A stretch of DNA of 23,420 nucleotides. It comes from an uncultured Subdoligranulum sp. GTDB taxonomy: Bacteria > Bacillota_A > Clostridia > Oscillospirales > Ruminococcaceae. Positions 3,603 to 17,271 of this stretch are shown piece by piece. The notes below the pieces were generated by a model. That model did no database searches. It was not told the DNA's origin and saw only the letters and a list, made by a program, of their open reading frames with translations. The position numbers and the translations under genes are program-made. The stretch covers positions 1 to 23,420 of the forward strand of contig NZ_CALADU010000141.1 in NCBI RefSeq assembly GCF_937890665.1, read 5' to 3'. The first letter of the stretch is position 1; each line of letters opens with the position of its first letter.

Positions 3603-4788
3603 ATCGGACTATGATCCGTCCCTTCTTCACGAACTGGATACCTTGGACCTACCTTCCGTTCCGCTGAAAGAGGAGGAGTGGGACCGGGTATTGGCTTCTG
3701 CCCGGGGACAGGTCAACGCCAAGCGCCCCTACCGGAAAACCCGGCGGCCCCGGCCGCTGCTGCGGTTGGTACGCAGTGCGGCGGTGGCGGCTGCTGCCTG
3801 TGTGGTGGTGCTGGGCAGCGTGAATCTGGCCAACCCCGCTTTTGCCGAAAGCCTGCCGCTGGTGGGCACCCTCTTCAGCCGCATCAACCGGGAGGAGGAT
3901 ACCCGCCTGCGCAGCGAACAGCTCAACCAGTACGCCCAGACGGTGGAACAGACGGCGGAAAGCGCCACCAGCCCCTATACGGTGACGCTGGGACAGGTCT
4001 ACCGGGACGAGGACTGGATGCGATTGAGCTTGGTCCTCACCACCGAGGATGAGAGTCTGGCCGGGTTTGATACCATCCGGGCCGATGCCGGCGGTTCCAT
4101 GCCGGCTGACACAGCCGATGCCTCGGGTGCGTTGGTTCTGGACAGCGGAGGCGTTCTTTCGCAGGAAGGGGTGAGCTGGTTTACCCGGCAGGATGAACAC
4201 ACCTTTGTGATGGGCCTCAACTATCCGCTCTTCCTCTATGAGGAGGGGAATGGTTCCTTGACCGGACAGTCGGTGACCATGCATCTCTACGGACTGGTGG
4301 CCTGCAACGTGGAGGTCGTAGAGGAGCGCACCAACGACTGGGGCGGCCAGTACCAACAGGTGGCGTATCATGACGAAACCCCGCTGGAAGGGGACTACAC
4401 CCTGACTTTCACCATCCCGGCGCCGGGCACCGAGGGCATCCGCACCTTCACCGGGCCGCTGACGCAGGACGGGGTGACGCTCCACAGTCTGAAGGCTACC
4501 CCCGCTGCCGCCAAGATGGAGATCCAACTGCCTAGCTATGAGGGAAGCAACCGGTATACCACCGAGGTGAAGCTCACCGCTGCCGACGGTACGTTGCTGA
4601 AAGCGGAACGAGGGGAAGGCAAGCATCTGGACGAAGCCGATCCCCAGAGCGATTATCTCTGGACCTACTACTTTGACACCGTGCCGGAGGACAGCCAAAC
4701 GGTGACGGTAACAGTCTATCGAATCGACTATTCCGCCCAGCCCAGTACCGGAGAAGTGCTGACTGAATTGACCGTGCCGCTTTCGTAA
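3595..4788 (+). CDS. DUF4179-type membrane anti-sigma factor
   Basis: This 397-residue protein has a cytoplasmic N-terminus of about 57 residues, basic just before the membrane (RKTRRPRPLLRLVR). One transmembrane segment follows at about 60-80 (Ala/Val rich) and then a large extracytoplasmic part. The NPAFAESLPLVGTLFSRIN segment after the membrane helix is the hallmark of DUF4179 proteins, which are encoded next to ECF sigma factors. No HxxxCxxC zinc motif of the ZAS type is present. The start ATG 3595 lies inside the sigma gene with AAAGGAG just upstream. The outer domain (about 110-397) is rich in beta-strand-like segments and may sense the envelope; this is inference. The gene ends 9 bases before a strong terminator, so the pair forms a two-gene operon. 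Confidence 0.85.
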   Translation: MRKSDYDPSLLHELDTLDLPSVPLKEEEWDRVLASARGQVNAKRPYRKTRRPRPLLRLVRSAAVAAAACVVVLGSVNLANPAFAESLPLVGTLFSRINREEDTRLRSEQLNQYAQTVEQTAESATSPYTVTLGQVYRDEDWMRLSLVLTTEDESLAGFDTIRADAGGSMPADTADASGALVLDSGGVLSQEGVSWFTRQDEHTFVMGLNYPLFLYEEGNGSLTGQSVTMHLYGLVACNVEVVEERTNDWGGQYQQVAYHDETPLEGDYTLTFTIPAPGTEGIRTFTGPLTQDGVTLHSLKATPAAAKMEIQLPSYEGSNRYTTEVKLTAADGTLLKAERGEGKHLDEADPQSDYLWTYYFDTVPEDSQTVTVTVYRIDYSAQPSTGEVLTELTVPLS

Positions 4789-11322: not shown

Positions 11323-11351
11323 TTGACAAGGGAGAGGGGATGTGGTATCGT
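11323..11351 (+). promoter_or_regulatory. Distal pflB promoter (P1)
   Basis: Consensus -35 TTGACA (11323-11328), 17 bases, then a TGG-extended -10 TATCGT (11346-11351). The predicted start is near 11358, giving a long leader of about 220 bases. The inverted repeat GTTAG-N6-CTAAC begins 9 bases after the -10, the same layout as the promoter at 14716-14744. Confidence 0.7.
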
Positions 11352-11360
11352 AAGTTGCGG

Positions 11361-11376
11361 GTTAGCATAAACTAAC
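11361..11376. promoter_or_regulatory. Candidate operator: GTTAG-N6-CTAAC
   Basis: GTTAG CATAAA CTAAC has perfect 5-bp arms and starts about 3 bases after the predicted P1 start. A repressor bound here would block transcript initiation or clearance. A near-copy is found at 14754-14769. The GTTAG half-site recalls both Rex sites (but two bases too far apart) and TTAG-type sites of DtxR/MntR regulators; the regulator is not identified. Confidence 0.6.
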
Positions 11377-11440
11377 TTTCGAGGCAATTTTACCGTTTTG
11401 CCCAAATGTTGGCGCAACAACATACGATACCATATAAGTT

Positions 11441-11449
11441 TGCTATAAT
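11441..11449 (+). promoter_or_regulatory. Possible extended -10 promoter upstream of pflB (P2)
   Basis: TGC TATAAT at 11441-11449 is an ideal extended -10 sequence. No -35 match lies 16-18 bases upstream, so it may be weak or activator-dependent. The predicted leader would contain a small hairpin, AACGCC (11466-11471) with GGCGTT (11483-11488). Confidence 0.4.
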
Positions 11450-11494
11450 ATAAAAACAAAGGAAGAACGCCACTACAAAATAGGCGTTTGCCCC

Positions 11495-11522
11495 TTGCGT
11501 TTTTTTGCAGATATGGTATTAT
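11495..11522 (+). promoter_or_regulatory. Proximal pflB promoter (P3)
   Basis: -35 TTGCGT (11495-11500), 16 bases, then a TGG-extended -10 TATTAT (11517-11522). The start is expected near 11529, inside the inverted repeat GTATC-TGCGTC-GATAC (11524-11539). The leader is about 48 bases with AAAAGGAG at 11563-11570. Confidence 0.65.
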
Positions 11523-11576
11523 AGTATCTGCGTCGATACCACATATAGGCAATCTGAACGTGAAAAGGAGAGCTTT

Positions 11577-13829
11577 ATGACAGATTTCAAGCAGTGGGAA
11601 GGCTTTGAAGGCCGTATCTGGAAAGAGGAAGTCAATACCCGGGACTTCATCCAGAAGAACTATAAACCCTACGACGGGGACGAGAGCTTCCTCGCCGGTC
11701 CGACCGATGCCACCAACAAGCTGTGGGGCGCTTTGCAGGCCTTGCAGAAAGAGGAGCGTGCCAAGGGCGGCGTTCTGGATATGGAGACCGAGGTTGTTTC
11801 CGGTCTGACCGCTTACGATCCGGGCTATATTGATCCGGAGCTCAAGGATCTGGAAAAGATCGTGGGTTTGCAGACCGACAAACCGCTGAAGCGCGCCTTT
11901 ATGCCCTATGGCGGCATCAAGATGGCGGAGCAGGCTTGCACCACCTACGGCTACACCCCCAGCGAGAAGCTGCACGAGATCTTTACCAAATATACCCGAA
12001 CCCACAATCAGGCGGTGTTTGATGCCTATACCCCCGAGATGAAGAAGGCTCGTCACAGCCACATCGTCACCGGTCTGCCCGACACCTATGGTCGCGGCCG
12101 TATTGTGGGCGACTACCGCCGCGTGGCGCTCTACGGTATCGACTTCCTGATCCGGGAAAAGCAGAATGACTTCGCCAACTGCGGCGACGGCACCATGCTG
12201 GACAACGTGATCCGTCAGCGCGAGGAGATCGCCCTGCAGATCAACGCCCTTAAGGACATGAAGGCTATGGCCGCCACCTACGGCTACGACATCTCCCAGC
12301 CCGCCGCCAACGCCAAGGAAGCTGTTCAGTGGCTGTACTTCGGTTATCTGGCCGCCATCAAGACCCAGAACGGCGCAGCCATGAGCGTGGGCCGTGTGTC
12401 CACCTTCTTGGATATTTATATCCAGCGCGATCTGGAACGGGGCCTGCTCACCGAGACCGAGGCGCAGGAACTCATCGACCATCTGGTGATGAAGTTCCGT
12501 ATGGTCAAGTTTGCCCGCATTCCCAGCTACAACCAGCTGTTCAGCGGCGACCCCGTCTGGGCCACCTTGGAACTGGCCGGCATCGGCATGGATGGCCGTT
12601 CTATGGTCACCAAGAACGACTTCCGCTTCCTGCACACGCTGGAGAACATGGGCCCTGCCCCGGAACCGAACATCACGGTGCTCTATTCTTCGGCGCTGCC
12701 CAAGACCTTCAAGGATTATGCCGCTCGAATCTCCATCAAGACCTCCTCGGTCCAGTATGAGAACGACGACGTGATGAAGCCTGTCTGGGGCGATGATTAC
12801 TCCATCTGCTGCTGCGTGTCTGCTACCCAGACCGGCAAGGAAATGCAGTTCTTCGGCGCCCGTGCCAATCTGGCCAAGTGCCTGCTCTACGCCATCAACG
12901 GTGGTGTGGACGAAAAACTGGGCGAGCAGGTAGGACCGGCCTACGCGCCCATCACCAGCGAGTATCTGGACTACGATGAGGTCGTCAAGAAGTATGATGT
13001 GATGATGGATTGGCTGGCTGGCCTTTACGTCAACATCCTCAACCTCATCCAGTATATGCACGACAAGTACTACTACGAAGCCGCCGAGATGGCCCTCATC
13101 GACACCGATGTGCGCCGTACTTTTGCCACCGGCATTGCGGGCTTCAGCCATGTGGTAGACTCCCTCAGCGCCATCAAGTACGCCAAGGTCAAGTGCATCC
13201 GCAACGAACAGGGGCTGGTCACAGACTACGAGATCGAGGGTGACTTCCCGAAATACGGCAACGACGATGACCGTGCCGACGATATTGCGGTGAACCTGCT
13301 GCGCAGCTTCTTGGAGAAGATCAAGCGCCGCCACACCTACCGCGATTCCGAGCCCACCACCTCGATCCTGACCATCACCTCCAACGTGGTGTACGGCAAG
13401 GCCACCGGTGCCATGCCGGACGGCCGCAAAGCCTACACGCCTTTTGCGCCGGGCGGCAACCCCAGCTACGGGGCCGAGACCCACGGCCTGTTGGCTTCCT
13501 TGAACTCGGTGGCCAAGCTGCCCTACCACTGGGCGCTGGATGGTATCTCCAACACCCAGACCATCAACCCCGATGCCTTGGGCCATAGCGAGCAGGAACG
13601 TGTGGAAAATTTGGTGCAGGTCATGGACGGTTACTTTGATCAGGGCGCCCATCACCTCAATGTCAACGTCTTCGGCAAGGAGAAGCTGATCGACGCGATG
13701 GAGCATCCCGAGAAGGAAGAGTACGCCAACTTCACGATCCGTGTTTCCGGCTATGCGGTCAAGTTCATCGACCTGACCCGCGAGCAGCAACTGGACGTTA
13801 TTGCCCGTACCTGCCACGCCGTGCTGTAA
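11577..13829 (+). CDS. pflB: Formate C-acetyltransferase (pyruvate formate-lyase)
   Basis: This glycyl-radical enzyme converts pyruvate and CoA to acetyl-CoA and formate in anaerobic fermentation. The 750 residues equal the usual length. The active-site cysteine pair lies in [20 protein letters not shown]; by alignment to the E. coli ACCVS segment it is C412-C413, with an extra Cys at 411. The radical glycine is G725 in RVSGYAVKF near the C-terminus. [21 protein letters not shown] and [27 protein letters not shown] segments also mark true PFL rather than a glycerol or choline lyase. The start ATG 11577 has AAAAGGAG eight bases upstream. The 312-bp upstream region has several promoter candidates. 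The activase gene pflA follows after a terminator-like hairpin. Confidence 0.97.
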
Positions 13830-13855
13830 TCCTCTAAGCAAGCTACACTGGTAAG

Positions 13856-13888
13856 ATCCGCGGTCGCGCAGTCGGCCGCGGATTTTTT
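13856..13888 (+). terminator. Hairpin terminator between pflB and pflA
   Basis: ATCCGCGGTCG (13856-13866) pairs with CGGCCGCGGAT (13873-13883), 11 bp with one G-U, loop CGCAGT, then a T-run to 13888. No separate promoter is obvious before pflA, so this hairpin probably lowers pflA expression relative to pflB instead of closing the unit. Confidence 0.85.
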
Positions 13889-13912
13889 GGAACGATAAGG
13901 AGCGAATCCCCT

Positions 13913-14683
13913 ATGTCACAACTCAAATCCACGACGGGGTATATCCATTCCGTCGAAACCTTTGGTCTGGTCGATGGACCGGGCGTGCGGTATATCATCT
14001 TTTTGCAGGGCTGCGCCATGCGCTGCCAGTATTGCCATAACCCCGAAACGTGGGCGTTTACCCAAGATACTGCCAAGACGCCGCAGGAGGCATTTGATGC
14101 GGCCTATCGGTATCGCAATTACTGGCGCAACAACGGCGGTCTGACCATCAGCGGCGGGGAACCGCTGCTGCAACTGGACTTCGTGTCGGAGGTATTCCGT
14201 CTGGCGCATGCCAAAGGCATCCACACGGCGCTGGACACCAGCGGTCAGCCCTTTGCGCCGGACAATGCCGACTGGATGGCCCGTTTTGATAAATTGCTGG
14301 ACCACACCAGTCTGGTGATCCTCGACCTAAAAGAGATCGACGACGAGAAGCACCGTCTTCTGACCGGGCACGGCAACGCCAACATTCTGGCAATGGCTCA
14401 GTATGTGGCCCAGCGGGGCGTGCCTCTTTGGATCCGCCATGTGTTGGTGCCGGGGGTGACTGACGATGCCGAGGGACTGCGACGGCTAGACGCCTTTATT
14501 CAGACGCTGCCCACGGTACGCCGGGTAGAGGTGTTGCCCTACCATACGCTGGGATTGTTCAAGTGGAAGAATCTGGGGATTCCTTACCCGCTGGAGGGCG
14601 TCCGTACCCCCACCGCCGAGGAGGTGCAGGCGGCCGAAGCGCTGCTGCATGTCCGTGACTACCCCGACGCACCCAAAGAATAA
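13913..14683 (+). CDS. pflA: Pyruvate formate-lyase activating enzyme (radical SAM)
   Basis: This 256-residue radical S-adenosylmethionine enzyme installs the glycyl radical on PflB. The iron-sulfur cluster motif CxxxCxxC is at C34, C38 and C41 (GCAMRCQYCHNPETW). It is preceded by the family signature IHSVETFGLVDGPGVRYIIFLQGC and followed by GGLTISGGEPLLQ, where GGEP is the SAM-binding segment. HTALDTSG, DLKEID and LPYHTLGLFKW match PflA closely. The start ATG 13913 has TAAGGAG at 13896-13902. It lies 83 bases after pflB on the same strand, with a hairpin between, so it depends on read-through from pflB or on a promoter I cannot see. Confidence 0.97.
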   Translation: MSQLKSTTGYIHSVETFGLVDGPGVRYIIFLQGCAMRCQYCHNPETWAFTQDTAKTPQEAFDAAYRYRNYWRNNGGLTISGGEPLLQLDFVSEVFRLAHAKGIHTALDTSGQPFAPDNADWMARFDKLLDHTSLVILDLKEIDDEKHRLLTGHGNANILAMAQYVAQRGVPLWIRHVLVPGVTDDAEGLRRLDAFIQTLPTVRRVEVLPYHTLGLFKWKNLGIPYPLEGVRTPTAEEVQAAEALLHVRDYPDAPKE

Positions 14684-14715
14684 CGGCGGCGGATAGGCTT
14701 TTTTATAAAAAATGG

Positions 14716-14744
14716 TTGACAAAAGCCCAGCGGTATGGTAGAGT
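14716..14744 (+). promoter_or_regulatory. Promoter downstream of pflA, driving a gene-less stretch
   Basis: Consensus -35 TTGACA (14716-14721), 17 bases, then a TGG-extended -10 TAGAGT (14739-14744). The predicted start is near 14751. The layout through the following inverted repeat is the same as pflB P1. No + strand gene follows, only structured sequence and terminators. Confidence 0.7.
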
Positions 14745-14753
14745 ATATACGTG

Positions 14754-14769
14754 GTTAGCGTCAACTAAC
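14754..14769. promoter_or_regulatory. Candidate operator: GTTAG-N6-CTAAC (second copy)
   Basis: GTTAG CGTCAA CTAAC has perfect arms; one further G/C pair outside makes a 6-bp arm. It starts 9 bases after the -10, exactly as at 11361-11376. It could be a DNA operator. In RNA it would also form a hairpin at the transcript 5' end. Confidence 0.6.
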
Positions 14770-14891
14770 CATAACCAATCTTGAACTGCCGCCGGGTATT
14801 GCCTCCCCGGGGCGGCTCCTGTCAACCGGCGGTCGTGCCTCCGTTTTGGGTGTTTGCTCGCACCATTTTGCGACCTACTGGTTGGGATTTG

Positions 14892-14928
14892 CCCCCGCCG
14901 TTTACTGCTCCGAACGGTGGGGGATTTT
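14892..14928 (+). terminator. Strong hairpin, possible first terminator of the candidate RNA
   Basis: CCCCCGCCGTT (14892-14902) pairs with AACGGTGGGGG (14913-14923) over 11 bp with one G-U and a 10-base loop, followed by ATTTTGG. The short T-run makes termination here partial, or the hairpin may be the 3' domain of the RNA. Confidence 0.6.
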
Positions 14929-14935
14929 GGTACAC

Positions 14936-14969
14936 AAAAAGCGCTGCTTGAAAAAAGCAGCGCTTTTTT
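14936..14969. terminator. Bidirectional terminator between the candidate RNA and the glycosyltransferase operon
   Basis: AAAAAGCGCTGCTT (14936-14949) and its exact reverse complement (14955-14968) form a 14-bp stem with a 5-base loop. T-runs flank it in both reading directions. It lies 15 bases after the last glycosyltransferase stop codon on the minus strand. Confidence 0.92.
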
Positions 14970-14983
14970 ATTTTGGTACGTTT

Positions 14984-16045
14984 TTAATCACGGCGCAGCC
15001 GCCCGCCCAGCAGGTAGTAACCAGCCCAATCCAGTTTGCCGTACAAGGGGGAGCCGGTGCGTTTGGCTTCCGCCATGGTGTACAAAAGGCGGGTGCTACG
15101 CCAGCGGCAGGGCAGATAATAGGCGTTGTAACACCGCTCTTGCCGCATCAGGTCCAGCAGAGCCCGCAGCCAAGGGGTACGCAGCGCGGCAGCCGCTTTG
15201 TCCCGGCGGATGCCGGACAGCGGTGCAGGATCCCGACGCAAAATATCGGCTACCCCTTCGGCAAAGACGGTCAGCTCAGCGCGATGCAGTTGGCGGAGTG
15301 CCGCCTCGGGGCATTGGGCTGCCAGACAGGCTGCGTTCAGCTTGGCGAAATGCTGGGGCCAAATCTCGCAGTAGTTGGCGTGGTACTTGGTGGACAGCGT
15401 CCCTGTGCGGCTGCAATCGTAGAAGGTAAGGGGGCTTTGCACCACACGGTAGGCAAAATCCGGCTGTTGAGCCGTCAACAAGGCAATATAATCCAATACA
15501 AATTGTAAATCTTCGCCCAAAGTATACTGTGTGTTGAATTTTATCTGCTGGGCCAGTTCGGTTCGGTAGAGTTTGTTCCAAGGCATCGCCAGCAGACAGT
15601 CCAACCACAGCTGGGCCAGCCCGGTGCGAGGCACCTCGTCGGCAGAGGAAGTCACCGGGGTGGAATCTGTTTCAAGGGTGGTGTAGTGCCACAGGATAAA
15701 GTCCTTGGGGGCGGCGCGCTGGGCATCCAGTGCAGCTTGCAAGGCGCCGGGGCGCAGGGCGTCGTCGGAATCCAAAAACACCAGATAGTCACTATCGGCG
15801 GCGGCCATGCCCACGTTGCGGGCGCTGGATACGCCGCAGTCATCCTGATGGATGACCTGCACCCGGGCATCCCGGGCAGCCCAGTCATCGCAGAGGGTGC
15901 CGCTGGCATCGGGACTGCCGTCATCCACCAATACGCAGCTAACACCGCCTTCCACATTCTGGGACAAAATGCTCTGAACACAGCGGTCCAAGGTGGCCTC
16001 CGAGCGATAGACCGGCACGACCACACAGAAGGCAGGACGGCTCAT
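14984..16045 (-). CDS. Glycosyltransferase family 2 protein (last gene of the cluster)
   Basis: This 353-residue GT-A-fold enzyme is expected to transfer a sugar from a nucleotide donor in the cytoplasm. The N-terminal catalytic domain shows CVVVPVYRSEATLDRCVQSILSQ, the nucleotide-binding DDGS at 41-44, SSARNVGM and the metal-binding DSDD at 92-95. The C-terminal part has PWNKLYRTEL and GEDLQFVLDY, as in capsule and LPS-type GT2 enzymes. The ATG overlaps the stop of the preceding gene as ATGA, and GGAGGT lies upstream inside that gene, so translation is coupled. A terminator follows 15 bases after its TAA. Acceptor and donor sugars cannot be read from the sequence. Confidence 0.92.
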   Translation of the reverse strand: MSRPAFCVVVPVYRSEATLDRCVQSILSQNVEGGVSCVLVDDGSPDASGTLCDDWAARDARVQVIHQDDCGVSSARNVGMAAADSDYLVFLDSDDALRPGALQAALDAQRAAPKDFILWHYTTLETDSTPVTSSADEVPRTGLAQLWLDCLLAMPWNKLYRTELAQQIKFNTQYTLGEDLQFVLDYIALLTAQQPDFAYRVVQSPLTFYDCSRTGTLSTKYHANYCEIWPQHFAKLNAACLAAQCPEAALRQLHRAELTVFAEGVADILRRDPAPLSGIRRDKAAAALRTPWLRALLDLMRQERCYNAYYLPCRWRSTRLLYTMAEAKRTGSPLYGKLDWAGYYLLGGRLRRD

Positions 16046-17271
16046 AGGGCACCTCCGTTCTGCAAAACTTCTTGTACAATGCGAACAAAATCGGTATAAT
16101 AGCGCTCCACCGAGAAATCTTGTGCCCGTTTGGCACCGGCGGCGCCCATCTCGGCACAGAGGGCGGGGTGCTCATAGAGCATTCGGATGCTCCAAGCCAA
16201 CTGGTCGGCGATGTTCTCGCTGCGTTCCACCAGTACGGCCTGACTGCCCTCCAGATATTCGGGCATACCGCCGCTGCGGGTGGCCAGCACCGGGCGACCG
16301 CAGGCCATGGCCTCTACGGCTACCAGACCGGCGGCCTCCTCCACCAGCGTGGGGACACAAACCAAATCCGCCAGACGGTAATAGTCGGGCAGATCTTCGT
16401 TGGGGATGTAACCGATAAACTGGACACGGTTGCCCAGTGCGCGGGCCTGCTGTTCCAGCTTGCGCAAAAAGCTGCTCTGCTGGGTCCGACCGAAAAAGGG
16501 GCTGCCCACGATCAACAGTTTGATTTGCGGTACCGGCAGCAAGGCCAGCGCTTCCATCAATTTGTGGATGCCCTTGTCGGGGTCCAGACGGCCGCAGAAC
16601 AGTACCACGAAATCCCGCGCGCCGAAACCCAGCCGGGTACGCAATGCCAGCGGCGGCGGCCCGGGACGGAATCGCTGGGTATCCACGCAGTTGTACCAGA
16701 TGTACGCTCGCTGCGGGTCCAGCGTGCTGGTTTTCAGATAATCGTCACGAATGAATTGGCTCAACGCCAAAATGCCGCCGTAGATGGTATCCATCACGGG
16801 GCTGCAGGTGGTTTGGCCATGCAGATGGGCCAGACAGCGCCGACGGCCAAACATGCGGCTGATGGCGCTGCACTGGGTCAGGTTGCCGCCTTCGGCCACG
16901 ATCAGATCCGGGCCGGGGGGCTCCAGCGCCAGCGAAAGCTGTACCTTCTGGTACCAAGGGTCATAAGGGGCAGCGATACCCAGACACCGTTCCACAAACA
17001 CCATGGGCCAGTAACGGCGATGGCCGTGGGGGCGGGCAATGTAGAGCATTTTGGTGTGCTGCAGCCCTTCGGCGGCGCGGCGAGCCGCGTCGTCAGGTAC
17101 GCTGGCACACAGCAGGTCCAACTGTCCGTGTTTTTCGTTTTCACGAATCAGATGGGTCAGCAGTGTTTCCACCGCGCCGCCCTGCACCGCCGGAACCGGA
17201 AGGTCAGGCGGCGGCACCAGCAGTACGCGGGGGCGTCTTTCTTTGTCTTTTTCGGGTCTCAGGATGGCCAA
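16042..17271 (-). CDS. Glycosyltransferase family 4 protein
   Basis: This 409-residue GT-B-fold retaining glycosyltransferase has an N-terminal acceptor domain starting VLLVPPPDLPVPAVQGGAVETLLTHL, with the usual QGG motif. Its C-terminal donor domain begins near VVLFCGRLDPDKGIHKLMEAL and contains the E-x7-E motif in LVEEAAGLVAVEAMACGRPV, followed by ATRSGGMPEYL. The start is TTG 17271: AGAAGGAG is placed seven bases upstream and no ATG fits. It ends in the 4-base ATGA overlap with the next gene. The protein has no signal peptide or membrane helix and should act at the cytoplasmic face. Confidence 0.92.
   Translation of the reverse strand: MAILRPEKDKERRPRVLLVPPPDLPVPAVQGGAVETLLTHLIRENEKHGQLDLLCASVPDDAARRAAEGLQHTKMLYIARPHGHRRYWPMVFVERCLGIAAPYDPWYQKVQLSLALEPPGPDLIVAEGGNLTQCSAISRMFGRRRCLAHLHGQTTCSPVMDTIYGGILALSQFIRDDYLKTSTLDPQRAYIWYNCVDTQRFRPGPPPLALRTRLGFGARDFVVLFCGRLDPDKGIHKLMEALALLPVPQIKLLIVGSPFFGRTQQSSFLRKLEQQARALGNRVQFIGYIPNEDLPDYYRLADLVCVPTLVEEAAGLVAVEAMACGRPVLATRSGGMPEYLEGSQAVLVERSENIADQLAWSIRMLYEHPALCAEMGAAGAKRAQDFSVERYYTDFVRIVQEVLQNGGAL

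Follow-up and report, generated by a model that had tools for sequence, protein, structure and literature searches.

The pflBA locus and its two putative operators

The window analysed here is a stretch of 23,420 nucleotides from an uncultured Subdoligranulum sp. (contig NZ_CALADU010000141.1). It contains the genes for pyruvate formate-lyase (PFL) and its activating enzyme, pflB and pflA, and two copies of a 16-bp inverted repeat, GTTAG-N6-CTAAC, one upstream of pflB and one directly behind pflA. This repeat is probably an iron-linked operator of DtxR type that controls the distal promoter of pflB together with a conserved small RNA (sRNA) gene behind pflA. The features concerned are:

11323..11351, + strand: distal pflB promoter P1, with TTGACA at 11323, 17 bases and TGG-TATCGT ending at 11351; kept in relatives
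11361..11376, no strand: operator GTTAGCATAAACTAAC; going by the predicted start, it would overlap the first bases that P1 transcribes
11577..13829, + strand: pflB, pyruvate formate-lyase; 27 of 35 genus genomes have a homologue with E <= 1e-100
13913..14683, + strand: pflA, PFL-activating enzyme
14716..14744, + strand: small-RNA promoter, with TTGACA at 14716, 17 bases and TGG-TAGAGT ending at 14744
14754..14769, no strand: operator GTTAGCGTCAACTAAC, about +3 to +18 relative to the predicted start of the small RNA; exact in all 13 strong matches to the RNA model described below

The original prediction, made from the letters of the window, had described both promoters and both perfect inverted repeats, and they were found at these coordinates. 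It had noticed no third copy, and indeed the exact pattern occurs exactly twice in the window, each time on a TTGACA-17-TGG(-10) promoter. First-order Markov simulation gave an expectation of 0.006 exact sites per window, and none of 2000 simulations contained two. With up to two mismatches allowed, the window has four matches against 4.39 expected, and the two non-exact ones carry two mismatches each.

Nine Gemmiger loci with 83-88% identity (L001-L006, L009, L010 and L020) and two contigs named Pseudoflavonifractor with 83% are the nearest relatives by pflA; judged by this similarity, the source of the window is a Gemmiger-like bacterium. All nine Gemmiger loci have the element, with perfect arms and a variable middle, at both places, i.e. 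upstream of pflB or eno and directly behind pflA. In three of them (L004, L009 and L010) the upstream site stands before eno, at 83-85 bases from the start of that gene, and pflBA lies further on. The original prediction had named absence of the repeat upstream of pflB in close relatives as a finding that would speak against it, but the repeat is conserved there, and the recurrence of the same operator at both places also gives good support to its idea of a single regulator for pflBA and the downstream transcript. L007 and L008 have a single exact site each, about 2.4 kb before pflA, and exact sites were also seen in more distant Clostridia loci (L011:2950 and L049:5142).

One part of the proposed geometry needs revision. 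The distance of exactly 9 bases between the -10 box and GTTAG holds at the RNA promoter (10 of 10 sequences) but not at ten pfl/eno promoters, where it is 7 (four promoters), 9 (three), 10 (two) or 12 (one). As the spacing is fixed at the RNA promoter only and varies from 7 to 12 at pfl/eno, the identical geometry in the window is partly coincidence. Across these promoters the conserved feature is an operator next to the predicted start region, not the exact shared geometry.

The pflB leader contains two further repeats. A near-invariant palindrome at 11507-11531 (GCAGATATGGTATTATAGTATCTGC) covers the -10 box of a proximal pflB promoter (TTGCGT...TATTAT) in seven aligned leaders and is a putative site of some other regulator. 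Between P1 and this proximal promoter, positions 11407-11419 (TGTTGGCGCAACA) are part of a partly conserved TGTTGC...CAACA repeat.

A conserved, predicted RNA behind pflA

The stretch after pflA had been called gene-less, which is correct for proteins, but it looks like an RNA gene: a predicted transcript of about 175 nt, conserved and structured, with its own promoter and terminator. The features of this gene are:

14751..14927, + strand: small RNA gene, about 175 nt; start predicted, end at the terminator
14799..14806, + strand: loop motif UUGCCUCC, with variable surroundings; no conserved stem was found there
14835..14842, + strand: loop motif GUGCCUCC, then GUUU; all 14 sequences share GCCUCCG and the UUU after it
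14854..14859, + strand: loop motif UUGCUC, of which UGCUC is the same in all 14
14892..14927, + strand: intrinsic terminator, with CUGCUCC unchanged in the loop of all 14 sequences; read-through from pflBA probably stops here too

The 177 bases from 14754 fold with a z-score of -2.52, which becomes -5.07 when the next hairpin is included. A covariance model built from ten sequences without the operator gave 14 matches in the 35 genus genomes, 13 of them strong (E of 7e-25 or better) and one weak, and under stricter filters six matches (five strong, one weak) in a family sample of 396. In all 13 strong matches the exact operator and a TTGACA promoter stand immediately upstream; nine of these matches are loci used in the model and four (G324, G226, G406 and G401) were not. 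The weak matches, in G405 and G140, lack the operator, look like chance terminator matches and were rejected.

In the 14 sequences, the 21 pairs of three helices show more covariation than every slid control and, by all five pair measures, more than 500 of 500 shuffles, a control that is not a probability. Since the structure was taken from this same alignment, and since related sequences can outdo such shuffles, we regard the covariation as support and not as proof. Of up to four open reading frames (ORFs) considered per sequence, none that ends within the RNA is repeated across the 14. The invariant stretches GCCUCCG-UUU, UGCUC and CUGCUCC sit in predicted loops, and in the structural model these C-rich loops look like anti-Shine-Dalgarno loops. 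Rfam gave no match in the window at gathering score; at E <= 5 there were 15 matches in 14690-15000, all under gathering score, which were treated as chance. Neither an iron-sparing sRNA nor a DtxR regulon of this group was found described in searches of open-licence PMC papers, and the small RNA is apparently undescribed. Its presence is confined to genomes with a pflB at least 94% identical to that of the window. Four RNA-less genomes (pflB 89-91%) still carry the exact pflB operator, and therefore the pfl operator is probably older than the RNA.

Possible targets were sought by pairing RNA segments with ribosome-binding sites (RBSs). In Clostridium pasteurianum, PFL goes up and flavodoxin rises 14-fold at low iron, and pyruvate:ferredoxin oxidoreductases (PFORs) go up at high iron (passages of PMC5395762). 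Because PFL rises and PFOR falls at low iron in this organism, PFOR is physiologically attractive as a target. In 10 of 10 PFORs with the RBS AAAA(C/T)GGAGG, this site could base-pair with the invariant loop (an eleventh PFOR, L146, is of another type). However, the pairing energy is ordinary (five entries rank 80-174 of 379, and the rank is 276 of 661 in the larger set), and PFOR was therefore dropped as evidence. The pattern of this RBS occurs at 8-17 places in each of four genomes.

The larger set of 661 gene starts covers a quarter of one RNA-bearing genome, and five RNA segments were tried on it. For one of these segments, the invariant loop, the RBS of a GltA/NfnB-like oxidoreductase (TIGR01316), which we take to be an Fe-S protein, ranks first of the 661. 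Pairing of this RBS reaches -20.7 kcal/mol or better in all 10 RNA-bearing genomes examined (of 13) and in one of 18 RNA-less genomes. The oxidoreductase is a lead only, because the RBS overlaps an upstream reading frame, the two groups of genomes are clades and no other top partner is visibly an iron protein.

A probable iron regulon and its candidate regulator

In six whole genomes the exact element occurs 7, 4, 10, 7, 10 and 8 times, 46 in total, against 0, 0, 1, 0, 3 and 2, or 6 in total, for the reversed pattern. When the sites were assigned by reading the neighbouring genes, with domains checked for examples, six lay at pfl/eno, six at the RNA, eight at feoAAB, ten at DUF3793, five at a NifU-like gene, two at ZIP transporter genes and one at an ECF S component. 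Thus 26 of the 46 are at feoAAB, DUF3793 with or without flavodoxin, NifU-like, ZIP and ECF genes (flavodoxin adjoins DUF3793 in L101), and the RNA promoter carries the same operator as feoAAB. This content suggests that the element is an iron-regulon operator. An exact site in G003 (L086:3704) lies beside eno with its promoter pointing away from eno, and a one-mismatch copy follows it; this site is not counted among those at pfl/eno.

An exact site precedes tandem feoAA in 21 of the 31 genus genomes examined (the six whole genomes and 15 of 25 others; four of the 35 lack tandem feoAA). Upstream of the feoAB fusion no exact site was found in the 26 loci examined, including L186, where only 705 bases precede the fusion. 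Three have a site with one mismatch, about 40 bases before the match, and these come from G005, G006 and G003 only (L193, L195 and L197). Ferrous iron represses feoAABC of Faecalibacterium duncaniae but not its feoAB fusion, and expression of a flavodoxin gene goes up along with that of feoAABC (passages of PMC10781979). By analogy, the split of sites between feoAA and feoAB would mirror this iron response.

A 125-aa protein (L079:6316-6693) matches PF01325 (48.1 bits) and PF02742 (53 bits), both over cut-off, and thus belongs to the DtxR/MntR family. Close orthologues (at least 64% identity) occur in 21 of the 35 genus genomes; by coordinates, seven lie in the feo operon, seven are divergent to feoAA and six are on another contig, with G401 remaining. 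At the seven divergent loci (L291-L297), exact sites number 3-5 per locus. The exact feoAA site was present in 20 of 20 testable genomes with a close orthologue and in one of 11 without (Fisher 2.5e-7), for related genomes split at a 64%/55% identity gap chosen after seeing the data and with a split copy in G003 counted. In that genome the orthologue is split over two frames (L298), and a more divergent DtxR-like protein is encoded beside feoB. A family-wide search found a DtxR homologue in 191 of 297 genomes. Among 28 loci outside the genus, taken from the best matches, there were 22 exact sites in 94 kb and none for the reversed control; 12 loci have at least one, and all ten with a FeoB motif detected beside the DtxR gene carry exact sites.

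This genomic linkage points to GTTAG-N6-CTAAC as the operator of a feo-linked metalloregulator of the DtxR/MntR family, and not of Rex. The preference of the original prediction for the former is supported by both the regulon content and the feo-linked gene. Alignment to MntR shows that EDYLE, RH and IEH are kept and that MntR E99 is replaced by Cys (DACKIEH versus DVEGIEH). With the metal-ligand roles generally assigned in the MntR/DtxR alignment, this Cys is presumably a DtxR/IdeR-like ligand.

Proposed mechanism, alternatives and known systems

At pfl, at the RNA and at DUF3793 the operator comes after the -10 box and within the predicted start region, a position expected for a repressor site. 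With enough iron as the presumed co-repressor, the regulator would bind the start regions of pflB P1 and of the promoter behind pflA and block both. When iron is short, both would open at the same time as feoAAB and the DUF3793/flavodoxin genes. PFL would then give acetyl-CoA without the iron-rich PFOR route and flavodoxin would replace ferredoxin, while the second promoter would make the RNA of about 175 nt, whose GCCUCC and GCUCC loops probably pair with the RBSs of iron-using enzymes. An iron-sparing role of the RNA is likely in this scheme. We consider it quite probable that an iron-loaded, feo-linked DtxR protein represses pflB P1 and an sRNA of iron-sparing type, and that PFL, flavodoxin, Feo and the sRNA are induced when iron is scarce. 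Repression, binding, iron as the metal and RNA pairing are what we infer here from operator conservation, the regulon, the genomic linkage and the covarying RNA.

Several observations weigh against this interpretation. At the NifU-like gene the operator ends exactly 3 bases before the -35 box (17-base spacer) in five of five genomes (L078, L084, L088, L097 and L098, near 3972-4053). This position upstream of -35 suggests activation there, and it may be the metal-loaded regulator that activates the gene. Among ten pflB regions from the 14 RNA-less genomes with pflB, four have an exact site, one has a site with one mismatch and five have none (one of these, L273, without upstream sequence). Twelve of the 21 close-orthologue loci have no site in the flank examined, as the DtxR gene lies either within the feo operon or elsewhere, and 16 of the 28 family-wide loci have no exact site, with FeoB detected in none of these. 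G002 has the operator, but no DtxR orthologue was detected in it, and G404 combines an exact pflB site with a DtxR homologue of only 53%. Eight of the 46 sites lie at other genes, namely six methyltransferase / alpha-beta hydrolase / TetR loci (L082, L083, L092, L093, L094 and L099, with a TetR gene upstream in L099 by Pfam and in L092 by similarity) and two others. The six may be a similar palindrome of a different regulator. No conserved stem was found in the 5' third of the RNA in the 14 sequences, the ordinary PFOR energies and the strong pairing partners that are not visibly iron proteins do not favour an iron-sparing function, and all comparisons among near relatives are phylogenetically correlated. 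The shuffle control of the covariation has the limit given above.

Other explanations keep the operator and its regulator and differ in the transcript or in the metal. The transcript after pflA could be a 3' end or terminator element of pflBA with its own promoter, or act on the convergent glycosyltransferase gene that lies downstream of it. The strongest pairing among 379 gene starts is indeed with glycosyltransferase RBSs (seven of the top nine), and the one in the window (16046-16060, - strand, GAACGGAGGTGCC) is highly complementary to the sRNA loop. However, this RBS lies inside the end of an upstream ORF, so that coding can explain its conservation; L004, L009 and L010 keep the RNA although their downstream sequence is, by eye, unlike the glycosyltransferase gene; and the invariant C-rich loops and covarying stems also speak against this explanation. 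We regard it as rather unlikely. That the regulator senses manganese, as MntR does, or another metal is favoured by its closest solved structures, which are of MntR (2h09 and 1on1), and by the ZIP transporter in the regulon. The feoAAB and flavodoxin genes in the regulon and the Cys at the E99 position argue for iron instead, as does the iron repression of Faecalibacterium feoAABC reported in PMC10781979, and a metal other than iron appears improbable.

A different regulator is harder to reconcile with the data. Rex controls pfl in some Firmicutes, but the arms and spacing of the element differ from the Rex consensus as we know it, the regulon consists mostly of iron-uptake and iron-saving genes and the sites cluster at DtxR-feo loci, which makes control of pflB by Rex or another redox regulator through this element extremely improbable. 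Several genomes have a PerR-like gene beside rubrerythrin and feo, and a Fur/PerR-family protein encoded near feo could bind the element. Fur/PerR boxes as generally known look different, no gene of this family was found in G002 with its four sites, and the DtxR gene itself sits among sites; we therefore think this very improbable too. Returning to iron-dependent repression by DtxR, a fuller scheme is tentative and in our estimate falls somewhat short of an even chance. In this two-armed iron switch of anaerobic gut Clostridia, a DtxR-type repressor would act through the 16-bp operator on PFL and on an adjacent iron-sparing sRNA that silences Fe-S enzymes such as the GltA/NfnB-like oxidoreductase. 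The NifU-like gene would be activated at high iron from upstream of -35, and the pfl operator would have come first, with the sRNA added in one Gemmiger clade.

One switch on iron-uptake genes, a low-iron fermentation enzyme and an adjacent sRNA suggests a built-in iron-saving programme in the Gemmiger group of gut bacteria. This goes beyond the original prediction in that the downstream transcript appears as a conserved structured RNA and the regulon as iron-linked. The choice between PFL and PFOR sets the formate and hydrogen output of gut anaerobes, and iron control of this choice is directly testable on the operator, the candidate regulator and the separate sRNA gene described here.

The proposed regulator resembles the DtxR/IdeR/MntR family in its PF01325 and PF02742 domains and in a palindrome with TTAG/CTAA half-sites. 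It differs in the operator, which has an N6 centre (16 bp) compared with the 19-bp DtxR box as we know it and is also unlike the familiar MntR box, and in a ligand set that mixes an MntR-like Asp with a DtxR-like Cys according to the usual ligand roles. FsrA targets include gltAB. FsrA of Bacillus subtilis and IsrR of Staphylococcus aureus are similar to the RNA described here in that their promoters are under an iron repressor and C-rich regions face Shine-Dalgarno sequences, and IsrR targets include the glutamate synthase gene gltB2, which recalls the GltA/NfnB-like lead (parts of PMC9410917). Both differ in being Fur-controlled, whereas the gene here sits behind pflA and matches no Rfam family. 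We know of no synteny relation between FsrA or IsrR and this RNA. Another parallel is MrsI of Mycobacterium tuberculosis, an iron-sparing sRNA predicted to be under IdeR, a DtxR-family repressor (also in part of PMC9410917), although it comes from an unrelated organism and the RNA here has no Rfam match. Physiologically, the proposed switch resembles the low-iron response of C. pasteurianum, for which the passages cited above (PMC5395762) describe neither a regulator nor an sRNA but report that PFL and flavodoxin go up and PFORs go down.

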